Below are positions 3,997 through 18,712 of a stretch of DNA of 40,736 nucleotides, in pieces (positions within the stretch are counted from its first letter, which is position 1; each line of letters starts with the position of its first letter). Below the pieces are notes generated by a model, which did not search any database, was not told the origin of the DNA, and saw only the letters and a list, made by a program, of their open reading frames with translations. The stretch comes from a virus, in the IMG/VR virus record IMGVR_UViG_3300020193_000047, positions 1 to 40,736 of that record; one strand, written 5' to 3'. Position numbers and translations under genes: made by a program.

Positions 3997-5590
3997 TTTT
4001 GATTATATACAAGCAAGTTTAAATACACAACCAGAAAAAGATAATGCGTTTTTATCGCATGATCCATTTAATAAATCATGGGATGATTTAAAGAATTTTT
4101 CTGGCATAGACAATAATTTTAAACGTAGAGCAGCACGGAATTTAAATAAAGCGGTAGCGACAGAAAATCCTGCATATCTTGATGCAGCTAATGCAACCCC
4201 ATACGGACAAAACTCAGGATCAAAGGCTATTAATCCTGGAACGGTATATAGAAATGGTTATGGATTATTTGATGTAATTACACCACCATACAACATGTAT
4301 GAGCTAGCAAATTTCTATGATACAAACTTTGCTAATCATGCTGCTATTGATGCAAAGGTAGAAAATGTTGTTGGTCTTGGATACCGTTTTGATATTACAG
4401 ATCGTACAATGCTTAGTTTTGAACTTACAGAAGATCAAGGAAAAGTTGATCGTGCAAGAAATAGAATTGAAAGAGCAAAGATTGAACTACGTGATTGGGT
4501 GGAATCACTCAATGATGATGATTCATTTACAACCATTATGGAAAAGGTTTATACAGACCTACAAGCCACTGGAAATGGCTTCATTGAGGTAGGACGTACA
4601 GTATCTGGAGAAATAGGCTATATCGGTCATATACCAGCTACAACAGTGCGTGTACGCCGTTTGCGTGATGGATATCTACAAATTATTGGACAGAAACTTG
4701 TTTACTTTAGAAACTTTGGCGGTAAAAATCCAAATCCAGTAACAGATGATCCACGTCCAAATGAGATTATTCATCTTAAGCAATACTCTCCACTAAATAC
4801 ATTTTATGGTATTCCAGATATTCTTGCTGCCATGCCATCTCTAATTGGAGACCAACTTGCCTCACAATATAACATTGATTATTTTGAAAATAAGGCGGTA
4901 CCAAGATATGTAATTACAGTAAAAGGTGCTAAGTTATCTGCTGATGCAGAAGACAAGATGTTTAGATTTTTACAGACAGGACTAAAGTCTCAATCTCACA
5001 GAACACTTTACATCCCACTTCCTGGAGATACAGAAAATAATAAGGTTGAATTTAAAATGGAGCCAATTGAAAACGGTATTCAAGAAGGCTCATTTAAGGA
5101 GTATCGTAAACAAAATCGTGATGATATTTTGATTGCTCATCAAGTCCCTATTTCTAAGTTAGGTGGAGCAGACTCTGCTGCTATCGCTGCTGCTTTGGCA
5201 CAGGACCGTACATTTAAAGAACAGGTTTCTCGTCCAGCACAAAGATATCTTGAGAAGATCGTAAATAAGATTATTAAAGAAAAGACTGATATTTTAGAAC
5301 TTAGGTTTAATGAGCTGACACTTACAGACGAAATAGCACAGTCTCAGATTTTGGAACGCTATGTTAAAACTCAGGTTATGACTCCGAATGAAGCACGTGA
5401 GAAGCTTGATCTTCCACAGCGCTCAGATGGAGATGCCCCATTTGTCATGTCCCCAAGACAAGCCACAGATGCTAGGGCAAACTTGGCGGGTAACAGAGAA
5501 AGAGATGCCGAAAGAACAAATAATAACTCAGACTCTTTATCCACAATTTCTGGTCGTAATCCACAAGGAGAGGGTCGTTCTACACAGTAA
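3989..5590 (+). CDS. Phage portal protein (PBSX family)
   Basis: The portal is the ring at one capsid vertex through which DNA enters and leaves and to which the neck attaches. The 533-residue product has the PBSX-type layout: an N-terminal region with the PPYNMYELANFYDTNFANHA stretch, a central DDSFTTIMEKVYTDLQATGNG segment, then RPNEIIHLKQYSPLNTFYGI followed by SLIGDQLASQYNIDYFENKA, a hallmark of this family, and a polar, disordered C-terminal tail. ATG 3989 was chosen because GAAAGGA at 3971-3977 is suitably spaced; ATGs at 3968 and 3977 are in frame alternatives. It overlaps the previous gene by 8 nt and is followed by the protease, scaffold and capsid genes, the standard head-gene order. 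No large terminase is encoded upstream within the window. Confidence 0.93.
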   Translation: MADFDYIQASLNTQPEKDNAFLSHDPFNKSWDDLKNFSGIDNNFKRRAARNLNKAVATENPAYLDAANATPYGQNSGSKAINPGTVYRNGYGLFDVITPPYNMYELANFYDTNFANHAAIDAKVENVVGLGYRFDITDRTMLSFELTEDQGKVDRARNRIERAKIELRDWVESLNDDDSFTTIMEKVYTDLQATGNGFIEVGRTVSGEIGYIGHIPATTVRVRRLRDGYLQIIGQKLVYFRNFGGKNPNPVTDDPRPNEIIHLKQYSPLNTFYGIPDILAAMPSLIGDQLASQYNIDYFENKAVPRYVITVKGAKLSADAEDKMFRFLQTGLKSQSHRTLYIPLPGDTENNKVEFKMEPIENGIQEGSFKEYRKQNRDDILIAHQVPISKLGGADSAAIAAALAQDRTFKEQVSRPAQRYLEKIVNKIIKEKTDILELRFNELTLTDEIAQSQILERYVKTQVMTPNEAREKLDLPQRSDGDAPFVMSPRQATDARANLAGNRERDAERTNNNSDSLSTISGRNPQGEGRSTQ

Positions 5591-5614
5591 TATCCACAGG
5601 GTATTATAAAGGAA

Positions 5615-5623
5615 TGATATAAT
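5615..5623 (+). promoter_or_regulatory. Extended -10 promoter (TGATATAAT) before head protease
   Basis: TGATATAAT ends 9 nt before the protease ATG at 5633. A start at or just before the ATG would give a leaderless or nearly leaderless mRNA. The only purine-rich sequence (AAAGGA at 5608-5613) is about 20 nt from the ATG, too far for a normal ribosome-binding site. Confidence 0.6.
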
Positions 5624-5632
5624 TATTCTGCC

Positions 5633-6937
5633 ATGAATATAAATAAAGCACAATGGACTACTGATGGCGACAATGTTCGCTTTTCTATGCCTATCGGCAA
5701 GATCGATCAGGAGCGCAGAATCGTATCTGGTTTTGCCACTCTTGACAACATTGACAAGCAGAGCGATATCGTTACTACTGAAGCAAGTATAACCGCTTTT
5801 AAGAAGTTCCGTGGAAACCTGCGTGAAATGCATCAGCCAACTGCTGTTGGTAAGGTAGTTTCATTTAAAGAAGATCGTTATTTTGATCCAAGCACAAAAA
5901 AGTTTTATAGCGGAGTATATGTTTCTGCATATATTTCAAAAGGCGCACAAGATACATGGGAAAAAGTTTTAGATGGTACATTAACTGGTTTTTCAATTGG
6001 CGGGAATATAAAGAAGTTTGATGATTCCTATAATGAAGAATTAGAAAAAGCGGTACGAGTAATTAAAGAATATGATCTTCATGAACTGTCTTTGGTAGAT
6101 AATCCAGCAAATCAATTTGCAAATGTAATTTCAATTGAAAAAGGACAACTTGGTGGATTTTTAGCAAAGGCAGAAATTGAGAATGTTTTTTGGGATGAAG
6201 ATAATGATATTGTTTTAATATCATCTTCAGAAACTGAATCAAGCCCACATTCTGGAAAACCTATGCAAAACATTGGCTTTGTAGAAAAATCTGATTCAGA
6301 TAATACAGATAAAATAAAGTTCTTAGTTGATAGTGCAAAAGGCATTAGGACAATTAAGATTACAAAGGAGGAAAATCCTATGACAGAAGAAACAAATACT
6401 GCTGAAGAGACTTTAGTAAAGTCTGAAGATGCAGTTGTTGAAAATGTTGAGGTTGCTCCAGAGGCTACAGAAGTTGTAGCAGAGGCAGAAGCAATTACTG
6501 AAGCGGCTGTTGCAGAACCAGCAATCGCTAAGTCTGAAGAAGTTGCTCCTTCTGCAGAAGAAACCGTAGAGAAGACTGAAGATGCAGTTGAAAGCACAGC
6601 AGCAGAAATTGCTAAAGGTGTAGCTGATATTAAAGATTCTCTAACTAATGCCTTGAGCAGTCTAGCAGAAACAGTTAAGTCACTTCAGGCTAACGTTGAT
6701 GCAATAACAAAGTCCCTTGAAACAGTTACAGGTGAAGTAAAGTCTGTAGCAAATGAGGTAAGCCAAGTAAAGGGTTCTTTTAATGAGTTTGGAAAGCGAG
6801 TAGATGCCGTAGAGCAAGATACTGCTTTCCGCAAATCTGGCGATCTAGGCGAGATCGTGCAGGAGCTTCCAGAAATGAAAGCTCAAAAATCCCTATGGGG
6901 CGGACGTTTCCTCAAAACAGCCGACCTATTTAATTAA
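5633..6937 (+). CDS. Prohead serine protease (XkdF-like) fused to scaffolding domain
   Basis: The N-terminal 160 residues match the XkdF/HK97-type prohead protease: IVSGFATLDNIDKQSDIV at 30-47, GNLREMH with the probable catalytic His67, LTGFSIGG with the probable nucleophile Ser121, and EYDLHELSLVDNPAN supplying an acidic residue. The enzyme matures the procapsid by cutting scaffold and capsid proteins. From about residue 250 the protein becomes an acidic Ala/Glu/Val-rich stretch and then a coiled coil (about 325-400), as expected for a scaffolding domain. This order, protease then scaffold then capsid gene, is typical. It lies 27 nt before the capsid gene. The ATG is not preceded by a usable ribosome-binding site and lies 9 nt from an extended -10 promoter. 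A strong internal start at 6380 probably makes the scaffold part separately (listed next). Confidence 0.88.
   Translation: MNINKAQWTTDGDNVRFSMPIGKIDQERRIVSGFATLDNIDKQSDIVTTEASITAFKKFRGNLREMHQPTAVGKVVSFKEDRYFDPSTKKFYSGVYVSAYISKGAQDTWEKVLDGTLTGFSIGGNIKKFDDSYNEELEKAVRVIKEYDLHELSLVDNPANQFANVISIEKGQLGGFLAKAEIENVFWDEDNDIVLISSSETESSPHSGKPMQNIGFVEKSDSDNTDKIKFLVDSAKGIRTIKITKEENPMTEETNTAEETLVKSEDAVVENVEVAPEATEVVAEAEAITEAAVAEPAIAKSEEVAPSAEETVEKTEDAVESTAAEIAKGVADIKDSLTNALSSLAETVKSLQANVDAITKSLETVTGEVKSVANEVSQVKGSFNEFGKRVDAVEQDTAFRKSGDLGEIVQELPEMKAQKSLWGGRFLKTADLFN
6380..6937 (+). CDS. Probable nested scaffolding protein (internal in-frame start of the protease gene)
   Basis: ATG 6380 is codon 250 of the protease gene, in the same frame, and is preceded at 8 nt by AAAGGAGG (6364-6371), one of the strongest ribosome-binding sites in the window; the parent gene itself has none. 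The internal start lies where the globular protease part gives way to the acidic, coiled-coil part. Translation from here would give a 185-residue scaffold, MTEETNTAEETLVKSE onward, with the Ala/Glu-rich stretch and coiled coil but no protease domain. Lambda's C/Nu3 pair works this way: the short in-frame product is the scaffold in many copies and the long one is the protease in few copies. The sequence signal is direct; the function is inferred from that precedent. Confidence 0.65.
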   Translation: MTEETNTAEETLVKSEDAVVENVEVAPEATEVVAEAEAITEAAVAEPAIAKSEEVAPSAEETVEKTEDAVESTAAEIAKGVADIKDSLTNALSSLAETVKSLQANVDAITKSLETVTGEVKSVANEVSQVKGSFNEFGKRVDAVEQDTAFRKSGDLGEIVQELPEMKAQKSLWGGRFLKTADLFN

Positions 6938-8188: not shown

Positions 8189-8539
8189 ATGTCAGCAGAA
8201 TTAGTAGAAGATTTAAAAAAGAAAACAGTGCCACAATTAAAAGCATACGCAAAGAAAAATAACATAGATTTGTTTGGAGTAAGCACAAAGGTAGAAATAT
8301 TAGAAGTAATTTTTTCCTTTATTCCAAGACCAGAACAAGCAATGAAGAAAAAAGATCAGCCAGCAGAGAGAGTTGCTCTTTATTCAGAAAAAAATCTTCA
8401 CTGGAATGGCGTGGGGGACCTTGAAAGAGGCTATAACATAGTATCTAAGGAGGATTCCGAAAAGTGGTTGTTTCGTAAAGATGTACGCATAGCGACGCCT
8501 GACGAAGTAGCAAAATTTTACGGTAAAAATAAGAAATGA
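8189..8539 (+). CDS. Small head-module protein with Rho-N/SAP-like N-terminal motif
   Basis: The 116-residue product begins with a helical motif, LKKKTVPQLKAYAKKNNIDL followed by GVSTKVEILEVI, of the Rho N-terminal/SAP/HeH type, a small helix-extended-loop-helix fold that often binds nucleic acid. The C-terminal half (LHWNGVGDLERGYNIVSKED, then EKWLFRKDVRIATPDEVAKF) resembles short proteins found just downstream of capsid genes in Gram-positive phages. It has GGAGG 8 nt before its ATG, its own promoter and a terminator upstream, and overlaps the next connector gene by 4 nt (ATGA). A role as head decoration, head-completion or DNA-contacting connector protein is plausible from position; the function is not established. 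Confidence 0.75.
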   Translation: MSAELVEDLKKKTVPQLKAYAKKNNIDLFGVSTKVEILEVIFSFIPRPEQAMKKKDQPAERVALYSEKNLHWNGVGDLERGYNIVSKEDSEKWLFRKDVRIATPDEVAKFYGKNKK

Positions 8540-11289: not shown

Positions 11290-11922
11290 ATGGCATATGA
11301 ACGTGGTACGTCCAACAATATTATCGTTGGTGCTGCTGCTCTTTTCCTAGCAGATACAACCCTAACTCCAGCAACACTGGAGGCATTTGACGCTACAGAA
11401 TCATTCAAGGAAACTCTTTCTGGCGCTGAAGATTATACAAATGTAGGTTATACCATGAATGGTCTTGAACTACAATTCCAACCTGATTTCGGTGAGGTTG
11501 CAGTTGATCAGGTTCTTGACGTTGCTAAGCTATACAAGCAAGGTATGCAGGTAAATCTCGCAACAGCGTTTGCTGAGGCTACACTTGAAAATCTTCTTTT
11601 GGCTCTTGCTTTCAGCGGTTCTGATTTGACAGGAACAAAGTCAACATCTGCTGGACGGGTTCTTAACCTTTCCGCAGGTAACATTGGCGAATGTCCAGTT
11701 GAACGTGGTATCGTTGCAGTAGGACCAGGAACTGGTGACTGCGTAAACTCTGACTCTGTTGAGCGTGTTTATACAGCATATCGTGCTCTATCTATTGAAA
11801 ATGTAACAGTCTCGGCAAAGCGTGACGAAGCTTCAATGTTTGAAGTTTCATTCCGTCTTCTACCAGAAGATTCTTCGGGATCTTATGGTAAGATCGTAGA
11901 TCGTACAATTACTGGAGCTTAA
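11290..11922 (+). CDS. Major tail tube protein
   Basis: This protein polymerises into the tail tube, the channel for DNA. The 210-residue product, beginning AYERGTSNNIIVGAAALFLA, has the beta-sandwich tube signature: an N-terminal strand with an acidic DATESFKETLSGAEDYTNVG stretch, then a 'YTMNGLELQFQPDFGEV' segment and 'VTVSAKRDEASMFEVSFRLL' near the C-terminus, as expected for tube proteins that vary little in length. It follows the tail terminator candidate and precedes the chaperones and the tape measure, the canonical order. It has its own promoter and leader, and a textbook terminator directly after it, which together fit the high copy number required. Codon use resembles that of the capsid gene (more C-ending codons), also consistent with high expression. 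Confidence 0.88.
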   Translation: MAYERGTSNNIIVGAAALFLADTTLTPATLEAFDATESFKETLSGAEDYTNVGYTMNGLELQFQPDFGEVAVDQVLDVAKLYKQGMQVNLATAFAEATLENLLLALAFSGSDLTGTKSTSAGRVLNLSAGNIGECPVERGIVAVGPGTGDCVNSDSVERVYTAYRALSIENVTVSAKRDEASMFEVSFRLLPEDSSGSYGKIVDRTITGA

Positions 11923-11950: not shown

Positions 11951-11976
11951 GCCCACCCTTCGGGGTGGGCTTTCTT
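11951..11976 (+). terminator. Strong intrinsic terminator with UUCG tetraloop after tail tube gene
   Basis: GCCCACCC (11951-11958) and GGGTGGGC (11963-11970) form a perfect 8-bp GC-rich stem closed by the very stable TTCG tetraloop and followed by TTTCTT. It isolates the tail tube transcript from the chaperone genes. Confidence 0.88.
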
Positions 11977-11979
11977 ATA

Positions 11980-11988
11980 TGATAAAAT
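11980..11988 (+). promoter_or_regulatory. Extended -10 promoter (TGATAAAAT) for the long tail chaperone gene
   Basis: TGATAAAAT lies 9 nt after the terminator stem. The predicted start near 11995 leaves only about 9 nt before the ATG at 12004, with a poor ribosome-binding site (CGGGG), so translation of the long chaperone is probably inefficient. Confidence 0.5.
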
Positions 11989-12003: not shown

Positions 12004-12696
12004 ATGGCTACTAAAGTATATTCAACTAAAAATATTTATTTGTTTGATGGCACAGAGATAGAAATATCGCCATTAAAAATAAAGTATCTGCGTGAATTTA
12101 TGGATACTTTTGCATTGATTAATAAAACTGAGAATGATGACGATTCTATATTGTTATTGCTTGAATGTGTAAGAATTGCAATGAAGCAGTACCGCCCAGA
12201 ATTATCAACATCTACATCCGATATAGAAAACGCAATTGATATGCCCACAATACATGAAATATTAGAAATCGCAGGCGGTATAAAAATAACAGAAGAGTCT
12301 GAAGAAACAGTTAAGCAGCAAGTAGAAAATAATAAGTCCAAAAATTCTTGGGAAGATATAGATTTAGTAAAGCTAGAATCAGAGGTATTTACGCTGGGTA
12401 TTTGGAAAAACTATGATGATCTAGAATCTCATATATCTATGCCAGAACTAATGGCTATTATATCTGGAAGAAGAGAATTGGATTATGAAGAAAAGAAGTT
12501 TTTAGCAGCAATACAGGGTGTAGATATAGATAAAAATCAAGATCGTGGACAAAAAGAATGGGAAGATTTAAAGGCAAGGGTATTTAGCAAGGGACAAACA
12601 ACTGATAGTAAGGACATACTTGCTTTACAAGGACAAAATGCAGTAAAAGCAGGATTTGGTATTGGAATGGGTTTAGATTATGAGGATTTAAGATAG
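12004..12696 (+). CDS. Tail assembly chaperone, long (GT-like) form encoded in one frame
   Basis: Tail assembly chaperones hold the tape measure protein while the tail tube is built. This 230-residue protein has two parts: residues 1 to about 98 form a G-like domain (FDGTEIEISPLKIKYLREF, then LECVRIAMKQYRPEL and MPTIHEILEIAGG), and residues from about 115 form a T-like domain (GIWKNYDDLESHISMPELMA, ISGRRELDYEEKKFLAAIQG). In lambda and most siphophages the G-T fusion is made by a -1 frameshift; here it is one continuous frame. The next gene (12742-13065) is a paralogue of the G-like part only. Initiation looks weak (GGGG, 4 nt before the ATG, very short leader), which would keep the fusion at low level. 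Position directly before the second chaperone and the tape measure strongly supports the role. Confidence 0.85.
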   Translation: MATKVYSTKNIYLFDGTEIEISPLKIKYLREFMDTFALINKTENDDDSILLLLECVRIAMKQYRPELSTSTSDIENAIDMPTIHEILEIAGGIKITEESEETVKQQVENNKSKNSWEDIDLVKLESEVFTLGIWKNYDDLESHISMPELMAIISGRRELDYEEKKFLAAIQGVDIDKNQDRGQKEWEDLKARVFSKGQTTDSKDILALQGQNAVKAGFGIGMGLDYEDLR

Positions 12697-12704
12697 CCCC
12701 CCTA

Positions 12705-12713
12705 TGATATAAT
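12705..12713 (+). promoter_or_regulatory. Extended -10 promoter (TGATATAAT) for the short tail chaperone gene
   Basis: TGATATAAT starts 8 nt after the long chaperone's stop. The leader of about 20 nt contains a strong ribosome-binding site (GGGAGG at 12730-12735), in contrast with the weak initiation of the long chaperone. Confidence 0.55.
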
Positions 12714-12741
12714 TTATACTAGCCTATATGGGAGGAAAATA

Positions 12742-13065
12742 ATGGCAACAACTATACATGAGGAAAAGACTCTTACTCTAATTGATGGAACAGAGATTAA
12801 GGTTCGTCCTCTAAAAATATCACTTCTTCGTCCGTTTTTGAAGAAGTTTGAAGGTGTTGCGGCAGTGGCTGAAGATAACGAAAAGTCTATGACTCTTCTT
12901 GTGGAGTGTGCTCAAATTGCAATGAAGCAATACAATCCTGAAATTGCAGAAGATCTAGAAAAACTTGAAGAGCTATTGGATCTTCCAACAGTTTACAAGA
13001 TCGTTGAAGCAGCATCGGGTGTTACGCTTGGCGGTATGCCAGATGTAATTTCTCCTGCCGAGTAA
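12742..13065 (+). CDS. Tail assembly chaperone, short (G-like) form, paralogue of the upstream gene
   Basis: This 107-residue protein aligns along its full length with the first part of the 12004-12696 product: MAT at the start, then IDGTEIKVRPLKISLLRPF, VECAQIAMKQYNPE and LPTVYKIVEAASGV. By eye 18 of the first 36 positions are identical, then an 8-residue block IAMKQY-PE is shared. It lacks the T-like domain. It therefore corresponds to the abundant gpG-type chaperone, encoded by its own gene with its own promoter and a strong ribosome-binding site (GGGAGG). No slippery heptamer or downstream T-like frame was found at its end, and only 25 nt separate it from the tape measure gene, so frameshifting is not needed here. 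Confidence 0.85.
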   Translation: MATTIHEEKTLTLIDGTEIKVRPLKISLLRPFLKKFEGVAAVAEDNEKSMTLLVECAQIAMKQYNPEIAEDLEKLEELLDLPTVYKIVEAASGVTLGGMPDVISPAE

Positions 13066-13090: not shown

Positions 13091-16000
13091 TTGGCTGATG
13101 TAAATGCCGAGATTAACGTAAATATAGATACGTCTGGTGCATTAGCACAGCTTAAAGCTCTACAAAGAGAAATATCTAGATTTCACACCTCAGTTGCAAA
13201 AAGCAGCGATGCAGCTGCATTAGCACAACGTGATCTGCAGAAGAACTTTATTAATGGTGTAAGCGCTATTAGAGGTTTTTCTGCAGAGTTACGAACAGTA
13301 AAAACAACTGCTGAAAATTTTACAGATTCTTTAGAACGTAATAAATTTTCTATGCGGGAATACTTCAGATATTCCATGGCATCCACCAAAACATTTGGTA
13401 GGATGTTTTCTTCTGAATTAGATACAGTAAATAAGGTAGCCGTAGAAAATGTAAAGAGGCTACAGACACAATATATCAAGATGGGCCGTGACGCAACTGG
13501 CGCTATGAAGGCAATTGCAGTTATGCCAACTAAACTTGATATGACTAATCTAACCACACAAACGCAGTTGGCTGCACAAAGACAAGCTATATTTAATCAG
13601 CTTGTTAAACAAGGATCAACTAATCTTTTAAATTTTGGTAAGAATACACAATGGGCTGGTCGTCAGCTTATGGTTGGTTTTACAATTCCACTAATGGGGC
13701 TTGGCGCAGTTGCAACAAAAACATTTATGCAAATGGAAACAGCAGCAATTAAATTTAAGAAGGTATATGGAGATTTATTTACTGCACCAGAAGAAACACA
13801 GTTTGCACTTGAATCTATACAGATGCTTGGTCAAGAATTTACTAAGTATGGAATTGCTGTAGCAGATACCGTTGGATTAGCAGCAGAAGCAGCAGCAGCT
13901 GGTTTTTCTGGAGCAGACTTACAAGCACAAGTAACACAAGCAACAAGACTTCAAGTTCTAGGACAAGTTGAACAACAGAGAGCGCTTGAAACAACTATCT
14001 CATTGCAAAATGCTTTTAGAATTGCTTCTACTGAACTAGCAGATGCTATTAACTTTTTAAACGCAGTTGAAAACCAAACTGTTGTTTCTCTTGATGATAT
14101 TACAACAGCTATTCCAAAAGCCGCACCAATTGTTCGTGAGCTTGGTGGAGATGTAAAAGATTTAGCGTTCTTTATGGCAGCCATGAAAGAGGGCGGTATA
14201 AATGCAGCAGAAGGTGCAAACGCTCTAAAGTCTGGTCTTGCATCACTTATTAATCCAACAGATAAAGCAAAAGGAATGCTCAGTGCTATGGGCATTGATA
14301 TTGATAGAATTGTAGAAAGCAATGTTGGAAATCTTAAAGCAACAGTTATTGAATTTGCTAAAGCATTAGACGGACTTTCTAATCTTCAGAGACAGAGAGC
14401 AATTGAACAGTTATTTGGTAAGTTCCAACAGGCACGTTTGTCTGCATTGTTTGACAACGTAATTCGTGATGGAAATCAGGCATCTCGTGTCCTTGATCTT
14501 GCCTCAGCGTCTATGGAAGAGCTAGCCTCCCTTGCTGAAAAAGAATTAGGATTAACTGCAGATAGTGCAATGAACAAATTCCGTTCTTCTGTTGAGCAAT
14601 TAAAGTTATCGCTGGCTCCAGTTGGAGAAGTATTTTTACAAATTGTAACTCCTTTACTAGATAAATTAAATGGTCTTTTACAGTGGTTTAATAGTTTGCC
14701 AGACTCTACAAAAAAAGCAATAGCAAAAGTTACATTATATTTGGGTGGACTAGCACCAGTTCTTCTTATGACAATAGGTCTGCTTGCAAACTTTGTTGCC
14801 AATGGCATTAAGGGGCTAAATCTTCTTAGAAATGGATTTTTAAGATTAACAGGTCAGTCAAAGATCTTAGGAGAACAAACGCAGTATTTGACTGTAGAAC
14901 AACAAAATGCAGTAGCCGCAGCAGCATCTCTTGAACAATCACACATGAGATTACAGCAGGCATTTACTGGAGAAGCTGTTGCAGTAAGACAACTTATAGC
15001 AGAATATCAAAGAATGATTGCTGCACAAAATACTTCTGCTACAAGATTCCCAGGAATGATGGCTCCAGGATTTAAAGCAAAGGGATATGCAAATGGAATT
15101 ATGAGTGTCCCTGGACCAAAAGGAGCTGGCGACATAGTTCCTGCTATGGTATCTCCAGGCGAAGCAATTATTTCTACAGCAATGAATAAGAAATATGCTC
15201 CATTAGTACAGGGAATTATTGCAGATAATATTCCAGGATATCAAAATAGTAGGTTTGGAAGAGTTTCAATGACTGGTGGTCAGTCTGTTGTTTATAGCGG
15301 TCTTGGTCTTCCAGCTCCAGGAAACACAAGCTCAAGTAGATTGGGTATGTCTTCGTCATTTTTTGCAGGAACACCAGGCACTGCTGCTGCAGACGATGGA
15401 TTTATTTTATCTTTGCTATCTGCACTAGCTGGAGGATCATTTACTTTAGGCCAAGGTGCAGGGGTAGAAACAAGAAGAAGCATGACAGATGTTGTTAGAC
15501 AAGAATATGCTAATGAATTATCTGGATATGCTGAAGAAATAGCAAGCACTTTAAGAACATCGGCAAAAAATCTTGGTGGTGTAGAAAATAGTACAGTAAC
15601 AATGAATAGAATTCTTGATAATTCTAGAGATGATTTGGATAATATTTTTGGAAGAATGAGAAATGCTAGTAGCAAGGCTGCTTTTGCTGCAGAGGCAATG
15701 GAAAAACATGGAATGTTCCCAACAGTTGCTGAAATGGGAGGAACATATGGTGAAATCAGAGCACCATCTATTAAAGAAGGTGACCATGCATCAGAAACCT
15801 CATTTAGAAGATTAAAAAACTCACCTTTCCAAGGCAGAGTACAAGGTATGTTTGGATTTTTAACTAAAGATAAACCAGATTTAGCAAATCTTAAAACTTC
15901 ATATGCACATCTTAATGATGCGAGAATGCTTGGTCCAGTAATGCCAATGAGTGGTGGAGCAGTAGCACCAGGCGCAGTTACCCCAGAAGAAAGATCTAGA

Positions 16001-18712
16001 ATGATTGCTGCTATACAGGCTAAGAGTGGTTTAGCAGCAGGCACATATAGCTCAACAGAAATAAGATCGGCAGTAGCATTAAGAGCACAAAAAGATGCTA
16101 AAACATATCAAGAAGCAATAGAAAAAAGTACCACAGATATTTATGAGCAGTCAAGAGATAGAAGAAGCCCACATCCACTAGCCGCTAAAGACGGTGCTAG
16201 TGATGGAAGGGCATATCAACAGGCCAGAATTAAAGCAATGAACGTTGCTGGAGGCACATCATCTGCTGCAACTGCACTAATTAATCCAAGAACTGGAAGG
16301 CCATTTACAGAGCAAGAGATTGCAGATGCTACTAGAGTATCTGGATCAAAGGTTGCAAATATGGCTTCTAACGCAGGCAGAGGGCCAGTATTTTTGGGTA
16401 TGCCCTCATTTCCAGAACAACCACAAGAAAGAAAGAAAAGATTTGGTAAAGTCAAAGGAGCTGTTGGTCGTGGTGTAGGTCGTGCTGCTGGTGCTGGTGG
16501 AGGATTTGGTTTATCTGGATTATTGTTTGGACTATCAATGCTTCCAGGAAAACTTGGACAAATGGCACAATCTATAATGCCAGTTGTATTTGGTTTACAA
16601 GCTCTAGGAATGATCACTAGAATTTTAGGTGGATGGCCAACGCTTCTTATTGCAGCAGCAGCTGGAATCTATTTATTTAATAAGTCTTCAATCAAAGCAG
16701 CTGAAGAAATTGCAGATGCTGCAAAAATGGAGGCAGAAGCAAGATATGGTAGCGCAAAAGCAATAGAAGAGTATGCAGAATTTACTGGAAGGGCACTACC
16801 AAGTGCTAGAGAATTTAGCAGAAATAATAGACAACTAATATCTGCAAGTGGAGAAGCAGTAAAAAGATTTGCAGAATTTTATGGACAAAAAGGAAATAGA
16901 GCTACTCAAGTAATAAATACTGCAGCAATGCGTAGTCCAGAGGCAGGAGTGCAGGCAGCTGCAATAGATGTTGCACAAAGAGCAGCAATTTTTGGTTTCG
17001 GACCAGCAGATATTGCCGCAAATATAAAGGCAGCAGCAGATTTAATAGGTGCAGACCAAGTAGAGCTTAAAGCAAAAATTCAAACACTGCTTGCACCAAA
17101 TGGGCAAGATATTACAAAAACTCCATTAACAGTAAAAGCAAGGATGGAATTTTTGCAAGGAGACTCTACAAGAAAAATTGAATCAATTGCTACTGGAATA
17201 GATAAACTTGGCAAAATACAATTACCAAAAACTGCAGGAACTATTTTAGGCACAAAGTTTGATTACCAGTCATTAAAAAAGGCTGCAGGAGCACAAGAAT
17301 TAATCAACAGGTCATACTCTGGTGGCATTGGTGGAAATATTATGGGGGCAGCTAAACAGGCTGCAAGATTCTTAAATCCAACATCAAAAAGAGGAACAGC
17401 TGGATATTTCAGCTTACCAACAACAGATGTTTTATCAGAATTTAAAAAATTACAAGATCAGGTACAATCAGCAAGCGTACAAGTATCTGCTGCATTTACA
17501 CAAGAAAAAGAATCTCTTGCACTGTTGAATGCAGAATACGCTGATGGAAAAATAAGTAAAGAGGAGTACGATGCTGCTTTTGCTGTATCATTTGATAATT
17601 TTGATAATCTTGAATCTTCAACAGTTAAACTTGTAAAAGAATTAAATAAAATAGATTCATCTGGAGAGTTAGCATCTTCCGCAATTAAAGATTTAGGAAA
17701 TCAAGCTTTAGGAGCACTTAAGAAAACAAATCCAGAATTATTTAAAAAGATATCAGATTCATTGTCTAAAATTGATAAAAATGCACAAATAGACATTTAT
17801 ATGGGGTTTGCAAAGGGCAGCTTAACACTTTTAGATTTAGCAAAAATTCCAGATGTGCTAGATAAGATTAATGGAAAAACCTATACAGTTTCACTAAAAA
17901 TTATTGGAGAATCTGGACTAAGTACTGGCGGAGCTGGTATGTTAACAGCTGCAGCAGCTCAGGCAGAAGTAGACAGAATTACAAAACTTATTAAAGGAAA
18001 ACCTCGTGTTCCTGGCGCACTTGCTAGACAGCTTGCACAGGCCAAAAAAGATTTAGCAGCTGCTAAAAAAGCAGAAAAAGATGCAGCAAAAGTTCTTCAA
18101 AAAGGAAATCTTGACACAGATACTGGCAGTAAGGGCGGTAGTACTGGTGGCACTGGCAAATTTATCAATCCATACGAAAAAGAAATAAGACTTTTAAATA
18201 AAAAGCGTGATGCGCTAAAGGAAGTAAATGATGAATTAGATAGACAAAATCAATATCAAATGAAACAAATTAGCCTTATTAACCAAGCTGCTAAAGCTAA
18301 AATGACTGGGGATTATTTAGAGGCAGCAAGTTTGCAGCAACAATCAATGCTAGAAGGAGCTAAATTTGCTCGTGAAAGCAGAATTGTTCAAATGGATAGA
18401 ATAATTGATCAGGCACAAGAAAGAAGTGGAATTGTTGCAAATACAAAGAAGTTAGCACCTGTAGATCGAAAGCTATTAAAGAAGTTGCGTACAGGAAGTT
18501 ATGGAGATATTGCTGCCTTGCCCAAAACACCAAATGTTGGATTTGGAGCAACTGGGCCAAGAAATACAGCAGCTGTAACGGGATCTAGTTCCGTGTATAA
18601 TGTAACAATGAACGTTACTGGATCTAATGCTGAAGAAATTTCAACCAAGGTATTGGCAAAGATAAAGCTTATAGATAGCAAAATGAATAAGACAAATAGG
18701 ATACCACTATAA
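13091..18712 (+). CDS. Tail tape measure protein (TP901-type core)
   Basis: The 1873-residue product sets tail length and is ejected with the DNA. The start is TTG at 13091, supported by GAGGTGA at 13079-13085. Residues about 215-460 form the TP901-type core (VGLAAEAAAAGFSGADLQAQ, LGGDVKDLAFFMAAMKEGGI, LFGKFQQARLSALFDNV). Hydrophobic, membrane-like segments lie near 546-572 and 1136-1197. Around 674-697 it carries the VPGPKGAGDIVPAMVSPGEA motif common in tape measures. The C-terminus holds charged coiled coil (KEIRLLNKKRDALKEVNDEL near 1695). By the lambda rule of roughly 0.15 nm per residue it implies a tail near 280 nm, if not trimmed. It follows the chaperones and overlaps the next gene by 1 nt. 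No peptidase or lysozyme domain was recognised. Confidence 0.94.
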   Translation: MADVNAEINVNIDTSGALAQLKALQREISRFHTSVAKSSDAAALAQRDLQKNFINGVSAIRGFSAELRTVKTTAENFTDSLERNKFSMREYFRYSMASTKTFGRMFSSELDTVNKVAVENVKRLQTQYIKMGRDATGAMKAIAVMPTKLDMTNLTTQTQLAAQRQAIFNQLVKQGSTNLLNFGKNTQWAGRQLMVGFTIPLMGLGAVATKTFMQMETAAIKFKKVYGDLFTAPEETQFALESIQMLGQEFTKYGIAVADTVGLAAEAAAAGFSGADLQAQVTQATRLQVLGQVEQQRALETTISLQNAFRIASTELADAINFLNAVENQTVVSLDDITTAIPKAAPIVRELGGDVKDLAFFMAAMKEGGINAAEGANALKSGLASLINPTDKAKGMLSAMGIDIDRIVESNVGNLKATVIEFAKALDGLSNLQRQRAIEQLFGKFQQARLSALFDNVIRDGNQASRVLDLASASMEELASLAEKELGLTADSAMNKFRSSVEQLKLSLAPVGEVFLQIVTPLLDKLNGLLQWFNSLPDSTKKAIAKVTLYLGGLAPVLLMTIGLLANFVANGIKGLNLLRNGFLRLTGQSKILGEQTQYLTVEQQNAVAAAASLEQSHMRLQQAFTGEAVAVRQLIAEYQRMIAAQNTSATRFPGMMAPGFKAKGYANGIMSVPGPKGAGDIVPAMVSPGEAIISTAMNKKYAPLVQGIIADNIPGYQNSRFGRVSMTGGQSVVYSGLGLPAPGNTSSSRLGMSSSFFAGTPGTAAADDGFILSLLSALAGGSFTLGQGAGVETRRSMTDVVRQEYANELSGYAEEIASTLRTSAKNLGGVENSTVTMNRILDNSRDDLDNIFGRMRNASSKAAFAAEAMEKHGMFPTVAEMGGTYGEIRAPSIKEGDHASETSFRRLKNSPFQGRVQGMFGFLTKDKPDLANLKTSYAHLNDARMLGPVMPMSGGAVAPGAVTPEERSRMIAAIQAKSGLAAGTYSSTEIRSAVALRAQKDAKTYQEAIEKSTTDIYEQSRDRRSPHPLAAKDGASDGRAYQQARIKAMNVAGGTSSAATALINPRTGRPFTEQEIADATRVSGSKVANMASNAGRGPVFLGMPSFPEQPQERKKRFGKVKGAVGRGVGRAAGAGGGFGLSGLLFGLSMLPGKLGQMAQSIMPVVFGLQALGMITRILGGWPTLLIAAAAGIYLFNKSSIKAAEEIADAAKMEAEARYGSAKAIEEYAEFTGRALPSAREFSRNNRQLISASGEAVKRFAEFYGQKGNRATQVINTAAMRSPEAGVQAAAIDVAQRAAIFGFGPADIAANIKAAADLIGADQVELKAKIQTLLAPNGQDITKTPLTVKARMEFLQGDSTRKIESIATGIDKLGKIQLPKTAGTILGTKFDYQSLKKAAGAQELINRSYSGGIGGNIMGAAKQAARFLNPTSKRGTAGYFSLPTTDVLSEFKKLQDQVQSASVQVSAAFTQEKESLALLNAEYADGKISKEEYDAAFAVSFDNFDNLESSTVKLVKELNKIDSSGELASSAIKDLGNQALGALKKTNPELFKKISDSLSKIDKNAQIDIYMGFAKGSLTLLDLAKIPDVLDKINGKTYTVSLKIIGESGLSTGGAGMLTAAAAQAEVDRITKLIKGKPRVPGALARQLAQAKKDLAAAKKAEKDAAKVLQKGNLDTDTGSKGGSTGGTGKFINPYEKEIRLLNKKRDALKEVNDELDRQNQYQMKQISLINQAAKAKMTGDYLEAASLQQQSMLEGAKFARESRIVQMDRIIDQAQERSGIVANTKKLAPVDRKLLKKLRTGSYGDIAALPKTPNVGFGATGPRNTAAVTGSSSVYNVTMNVTGSNAEEISTKVLAKIKLIDSKMNKTNRIPL

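Follow-up and report, generated by a model that had tools for sequence, protein, structure and literature searches.

Two adjacent genes in the tail module of a long-tailed actinophage, here called GT and G2, very probably encode its two tail assembly chaperones in an arrangement where programmed frameshifting has been replaced by a fusion of G and T together with a second G gene, the dosage of the two products being set by their initiation signals. The stretch analysed (the window) is the whole virus record IMGVR_UViG_3300020193_000047, of 40,736 bases, which is possibly itself a fragment of a phage. The relevant features are the following.

11290-11922, plus strand: major tail protein gene (context), matching phrog_2175 'protein with Ig domain' (E=8e-34)
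11951-11977, plus strand: terminator-like hairpin GCCCACCC-TTCG-GGGTGGGC then a T-rich run, upstream of the GT promoter, from sequence (the scan called the minus strand; the plus-strand terminator reading was made by eye)
11980-11988, plus strand: extended -10 element TGaTAAAAT of GT, 15 nt before the ATG
12004-12696, plus strand: GT, 230 aa, a G domain (about residues 1-98) and a T domain (about residues 115-230) in the same frame
12705-12713, plus strand: extended -10 element TGaTATAAT of the short G (G2), 28 nt before the ATG
12723-12735, plus strand: G2 leader element CCTATATGGG running into the Shine-Dalgarno GGGAGG (12730-12735)
12742-13065, plus strand: G2, 107 aa, putative separate short tail assembly chaperone, paralogue of the G domain
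13091-18712, plus strand: tape measure protein gene (context), matching phrog_10030 tape measure (E=2e-102) and Pfam PhageMin_Tail (E=9e-25)

GT and G2 lie between the genes for the major tail protein and the tape measure protein, as lambda-type chaperone genes do. The positional counterparts of the gene at 11290 in Streptomyces phages are annotated as major tail protein and some as protein with Ig domain. A sequence-only reading of this DNA had proposed two adjacent open reading frames of 230 and 107 aa, the first joining a G-like domain in frame to a T-like domain and the second a paralogue of the G-like domain only. Both reading frames have the coordinates it gave, and a hand count confirms its 18 identities among the 36 N-terminal positions, as well as the common IAMKQY-PE block. 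The domain assignments are borne out by homology: the N-domains of GT and G2 both match phrog_10504, residues 133-221 of GT match another family, phrog_10474, and the T domain is homologous to the -1-frame open reading frame of the Stanwilliamsviridae. GT and G2 are 42% identical across 96 aa (BLASTP, E=9e-25), and profile-profile comparison of the GT G-domain family with the G2 family gave a probability of 100% (E=1.9e-40). A homologous N-terminal domain is therefore present in the short and the long form, with a T domain added in the long one. The family phrog_10504 carries no function name in PHROGs, Pfam gave no usable match for GT or G2, a PDB sequence search with both proteins returned nothing significant and an Rfam scan of the window found no RNA element. 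On position and homology, GT would be the long tail assembly chaperone, produced without a frameshift, and G2 is likewise a predicted chaperone.

Structure prediction, proposed earlier as a check for a shared G fold and a separate T domain, agrees with this at modest model confidence (pLDDT 69 for GT and 66 for G2). The G-domain elements come in the same order in both models (two strands, then helices at about 26-41, 46-64, 72-78 and 81-92), and a helical T region follows the G domain in GT. A fold search of both models against the PDB gave no match; the best viral match of the predicted G2 fold was a phage tail assembly chaperone (probability 1.00, TM 0.74).

Among named phages, the Streptomyces phages of the family Stanwilliamsviridae are the nearest relatives. 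Their G and T are separate overlapping reading frames; T occupies the -1 frame in every case, and this frame can be entered at an invariant GAC CCG GAA or GAC CCA AAT. G and T were joined by the annotators of Phredrick. Many deposited Streptomyces genomes of the family (e.g., L001 and L095) treat T as an independent hypothetical protein with a start of its own, and a -1 frameshift at CCCAAAT or CCCGGAA has likely been missed in many Stanwilliamsviridae annotations.

A different picture emerges in IMG/VR, where the best 80 relatives of the window GT have the fusion in frame in all 80 and a second G downstream in 79. Profile-based scans of viral contigs followed by HMM classification, with identical sequences removed, yielded 283 distinct modules, 179 with a fused GT and a second G and 104 with a frameshifted G/T, those of the Streptomyces Stanwilliamsviridae among the latter. 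All 104 frameshift-type loci have the -1 overlap and a candidate slippery heptamer (CCCAAAN in 71, CCCGGAA in 19, GGGAAAC in 13 and another pair in 1), and a search for a second G in these loci found none. The programmed frameshift of the lambda type is missing from the other group, the fusion being in frame in the window and at 179 distinct loci; recurrence at that many distinct loci rules out chance or an assembly error. A CCCAAAN site was retained in none of 128 distinct fused genes, whose junction region contains 21 in-frame heptamers of mixed type. A residual slippery site in the fused gene was considered and rejected on the same 128 genes, no heptamer being common to the clade.

The second G is present in each of the 179 fused relatives that have a downstream region. 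Four fused loci lack it (L048, L179, L309 and L324), on contigs with no more than 4 to 524 nt left past GT (values of 4, 4, 116 and 524 nt). Whole-record searches located two G places in the fused-type records checked (one in the truncated L048 and L179) and one in frameshift-type records. A search of related genomes for intermediate states had also been suggested, and neither a fusion without second G nor a frameshift with second G was seen in the scans of viral contigs. The replacement of frameshifting by duplication, claimed at the outset for a single genome, is thus supported by the contrast of 104 frameshift with 179 fused loci and, as shown below, by their separation on one branch of the GT tree.

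Some individual loci deserve mention. In L042 an endonuclease-like gene lies between GT and G2, and G2 keeps its own promoter and Shine-Dalgarno; in L048 an unrelated reading frame follows GT. The window itself has an endonuclease VII-like short reading frame at 8189-8539, directly after the major head gene, with its own -10 element and Shine-Dalgarno. A scan of genome contigs found a frameshift-type G/T module (L269) on the cyanobacterial MAG contig CAINGU010000031.1, probably a phage contig binned with that MAG. Of 18 long related contigs, 14 scored above the cut-off for WhiB, an actinobacterial marker, with a control match only in Corynebacterium. The viruses thus appear to infect actinobacteria and to be related to Stanwilliamsviridae, judging from the homologous tail module and from WhiB in longer relatives.

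Phylogenetic analysis of GT (82 representatives) places the fused type on one side of a single branch (99/99, and 98% of bootstrap trees), consistent with one change. The fused type adjoins metagenomic frameshifters and is nested among frameshifters under a midpoint root. As the root of this tree was not inferred, the direction of change, frameshift first, rests on how widely the frameshift occurs among other phages with long tails (PMC5009743). A tree of the major tail and tape measure proteins needs two changes, the frameshifter L204 joining three fused rows, and its starred branches force one. The G of L204 is 54-63% identical to G2 proteins, and this locus may represent the nearest frameshifting relative or a recombinant. 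In the tree of G domains, the G part of GT (G1) forms one clade and G2 forms one clade (99/95). G2 falls among the G sequences of the frameshifters, while the stem leading to G1 is long, at 0.89 changes per column. An AU test does not reject the alternative topology in which G1 and G2 are sisters (p=0.155); a tandem duplication with an accelerated G1 is therefore possible, as is the acquisition of G2.

The clearest difference between the two genes concerns their start signals, counted over distinct upstream sequences with TGnTAnnnT as the -10 element sought. A Shine-Dalgarno motif precedes 0 of 163 distinct fused GT genes, versus 161 of 164 G2 and 87 of 91 frameshift-type G genes. The -10 element ends at most 15 nt from the start in 161/163 fused GT genes (median 7, mostly 6-9 nt), versus a distance of at least 20 nt in 160/164 G2 genes (median 26) and in 82/91 frameshift-type G genes (median 25). 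An element located 5-15 nt before GT occurs in 117 of 118 distinct relatives, against a mean of 2.9 expected after shuffling. Fused GT genes all start with ATG; frameshift-type G genes use ATG, GTG and TTG. If transcription starts about 7 nt past the -10 hexamer, most GT transcripts would begin at, or at most 3 nt from, the AUG, and fused GT mRNAs are predicted to be leaderless or nearly so. Because the signals of G2 resemble those of frameshift-type G and those of GT differ, G2 would have retained the ancestral kind of start signals, and GT would have lost them.

The window conforms to this pattern. The sequence-only reading had given each gene its own extended -10 element, and both are found, at 11980-11988 for GT and 12705-12713 for G2. 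It had further described a weak ribosome site on a near-leaderless GT mRNA and a strong GGGAGG site before the short form. The GT transcript is predicted to start at about 11995, with a leader of about 9 nt and only a weak GGGG as ribosome site, and GGGAGG is located at 12730-12735; the unequal initiation signals inferred there from one genome prove to be conserved across the clade. Hairpins similar to that at 11951-11977 precede 77/118 GT and 46/67 frameshift-type G genes and none of 117 G2 genes. A short palindrome (CCTATAGG, CCTATATAGG, CCTTATAAGG) lies close to where the G2 mRNA is predicted to begin, at 12723-12735 in the window and in other G2 leaders, running into the Shine-Dalgarno; a loose pattern for it matches 75/117 G2, 3/67 frameshift-type G and 0/118 GT leaders. 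Elsewhere in the window (5590-5633) the head maturation protease gene lacks a Shine-Dalgarno and has an extended -10 element just 9 nt ahead of its ATG; a leaderless-type start is therefore also predicted at 5633, and GT is not the sole predicted leaderless gene.

Codon usage separates the two genes as well. With the major tail gene as reference and 48 fused representatives, codon adaptation is 0.494 for the G domain of GT, 0.493 for the T domain, 0.631 for G2 and 0.712 for the major tail gene. G2 exceeds the G part of GT in 46 of the 48 (p=2e-13). Among the frameshift relatives it is the shared G part (0.615) that exceeds T (0.555), in 28 of 31 (p=7e-6). Within the window, GT has one of the lowest values of any gene (0.49), and the value of G2 (0.605) lies above that of every tail gene except the major tail protein gene. 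This indirect evidence fits low production of GT and high production of G2, with G1 now presumably made at the GT level only.

We propose the following scenario. The ancestor would have used -1 frameshifting at a CCCAAAN-type site to obtain a short G and a long G-T from a single gene. The G and T frames would have been joined in one lineage, every ribosome on the gene then yielding GT, and the short form would have come to be supplied by a second G gene. Dosage would from then on depend on two separate initiation signals, GT being translated from a leaderless or near-leaderless mRNA; for G2, a promoter of its own would give a transcript whose leader, about 22 nt long, carries a strong Shine-Dalgarno. 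The transcription starts, the excess of G2 over GT and the chaperone function are predictions from sequence, and the initiation signals are likely what sets the G:GT ratio.

Other explanations of the second G must be considered. G2 could have been neofunctionalised, binding for instance another stretch of the tape measure protein or another tail protein; GT alone would then cover both lambda roles, and the frameshift would not have been replaced. The divergence of G1 and G2 to about 42% identity, with G1 on its long stem, would suit such a history. However, the copy resembling the G of the frameshifters, in sequence and tree as in start signals and codon adaptation, is G2 and not G1, the fusion and the second G co-occur at every resolved locus, and lambda needs both forms at a set ratio (reviewed in PMC5009743), all of which renders neofunctionalisation improbable. 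We give even less credence to a fused gene that still yields some short G by recoding, through a frameshift into a stop or through transcript slippage as in dnaX, with G2 being redundant. The 21 mixed heptamers of the junction region speak for it, but the absence of CCCAAAN and of any clade-wide heptamer in fused genes, against one per frameshift relative, and of an Rfam RNA element within the window make it very improbable indeed.

A more serious question is whether, the replacement being right, the ratio is set mainly by transcription (through promoter strength or read-through from GT to G2) or by mRNA stability, and not by the mode of initiation. Since each gene has a -10 element and G2 lacks a preceding terminator-like hairpin (0/117), G2 should receive transcripts from two promoters; transcripts from the GT promoter probably read into G2, so that the two units are not fully independent. 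In mycobacteria, leaderless transcripts are common and need only a 5' ATG or GTG, and their translation is reportedly about as robust and efficient as that of leadered ones (PMC4633059), so the start signals are no proof of low GT; leaderless mRNAs may moreover be less transcribed (PMC7148126). We infer that leaderless initiation is the weaker mode. The loss of the Shine-Dalgarno in GT and its retention in G2 are near absolute (163 and 164 genes), which is hard to explain if the initiation mode were irrelevant, and a mainly transcriptional ratio therefore seems unlikely, though clearly less so than the two explanations above.

Fusion with a second G, and dosage through initiation signals, can be compared with systems already described. 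The lambda type is marked by a short form in excess over the long one, by binding of G to the tape measure protein and of T to the tail tube protein, and by the absence of both from the virion. Lambda-type G and GT are made by a programmed -1 frameshift (Xu, Hendrix and Duda 2004, cited in PMC5009743), which is described as widely conserved among phages with long tails, T4 excepted, the lambda ratio being near 30:1 (PMC5009743). Lambda shares with the present locus the position before the tape measure gene and a G domain at the N-terminus of both forms, with T only in the long one; here, however, in-frame translation yields the long form directly, and a diverged second gene, with a promoter and ribosome site of its own, supplies the short form. 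The G/T modules of Stanwilliamsviridae (Coruscant, Circinus, EGole, Faust and others) and of the metagenomic loci L201-L247 have homologous domains, the same gene order and a G with a strong Shine-Dalgarno, but an overlapping T in the -1 frame, CCCAAAN or CCCGGAA sites and no second G. Frameshifting is not universal across actinophage collections (PMC10274946), and some Microbacterium EA subclusters have no evident frameshift (PMC7302621). The tail chaperones of Burkholderia phage KS10 are likewise described as lacking an evident frameshift, but in the passages considered neither a fused GT with a second G nor an analysis of start signals or evolution is described (PMC2628397).

T4 offers another parallel. 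Its gp26 and gp51 are encoded by paralogous neighbours, both match Pfam PF12322, and they match each other at E=2e-6. Vladimirov, Gautam and Davidson (2022, cited in PMC12859696) reportedly proposed a mechanism other than translational frameshifting for the chaperones of T4-like phages, whose genes we take to be 26 and 51. Both systems are thus paralogous pairs, in the T4-like case reportedly without frameshifting, but gp26 and gp51 are full-length relatives and not G versus G plus T, their genes are divergently transcribed and no close frameshifting lineage has been shown for them. The G family of the window has no detectable similarity to gp26 or gp51 (hhalign, probability 0.7% and 2.1%), and neither GT nor G2 has a significant match to PF12322. 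A frameshift-free solution, probably as a paralogous pair, is hence already known as a class. A literature search for a fused GT with a duplicated G found no description, which is weak evidence of absence given that subscription journals lay mostly outside the search. As far as the literature searched shows, what is new is the design of a fused GT plus G, its single switch beside frameshifting relatives and the opposite start signals. On balance, we consider it reasonably probable that this actinophage lineage has a subfunctionalised pair in place of the near-universal frameshift, with G:GT dosage hard-wired by leaderless versus Shine-Dalgarno initiation and with frameshifting sisters still extant.

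Few known recoding events are as conserved as the frameshift of tail chaperones, which is usually explained as fixing the G:GT ratio. A clade in which a single, complete replacement has persisted despite deep divergence, with relatives that still frameshift alongside, allows one to ask what the frameshift is for, be it the ratio itself, co-translational coupling or economy, and the paired genes with their opposite start signals and codon usage amount to a natural experiment. Annotators gain a further layout of tail chaperones besides the frameshift and the T4-like pairs, and the gene pair can now be tested as a different way to fix a protein ratio.
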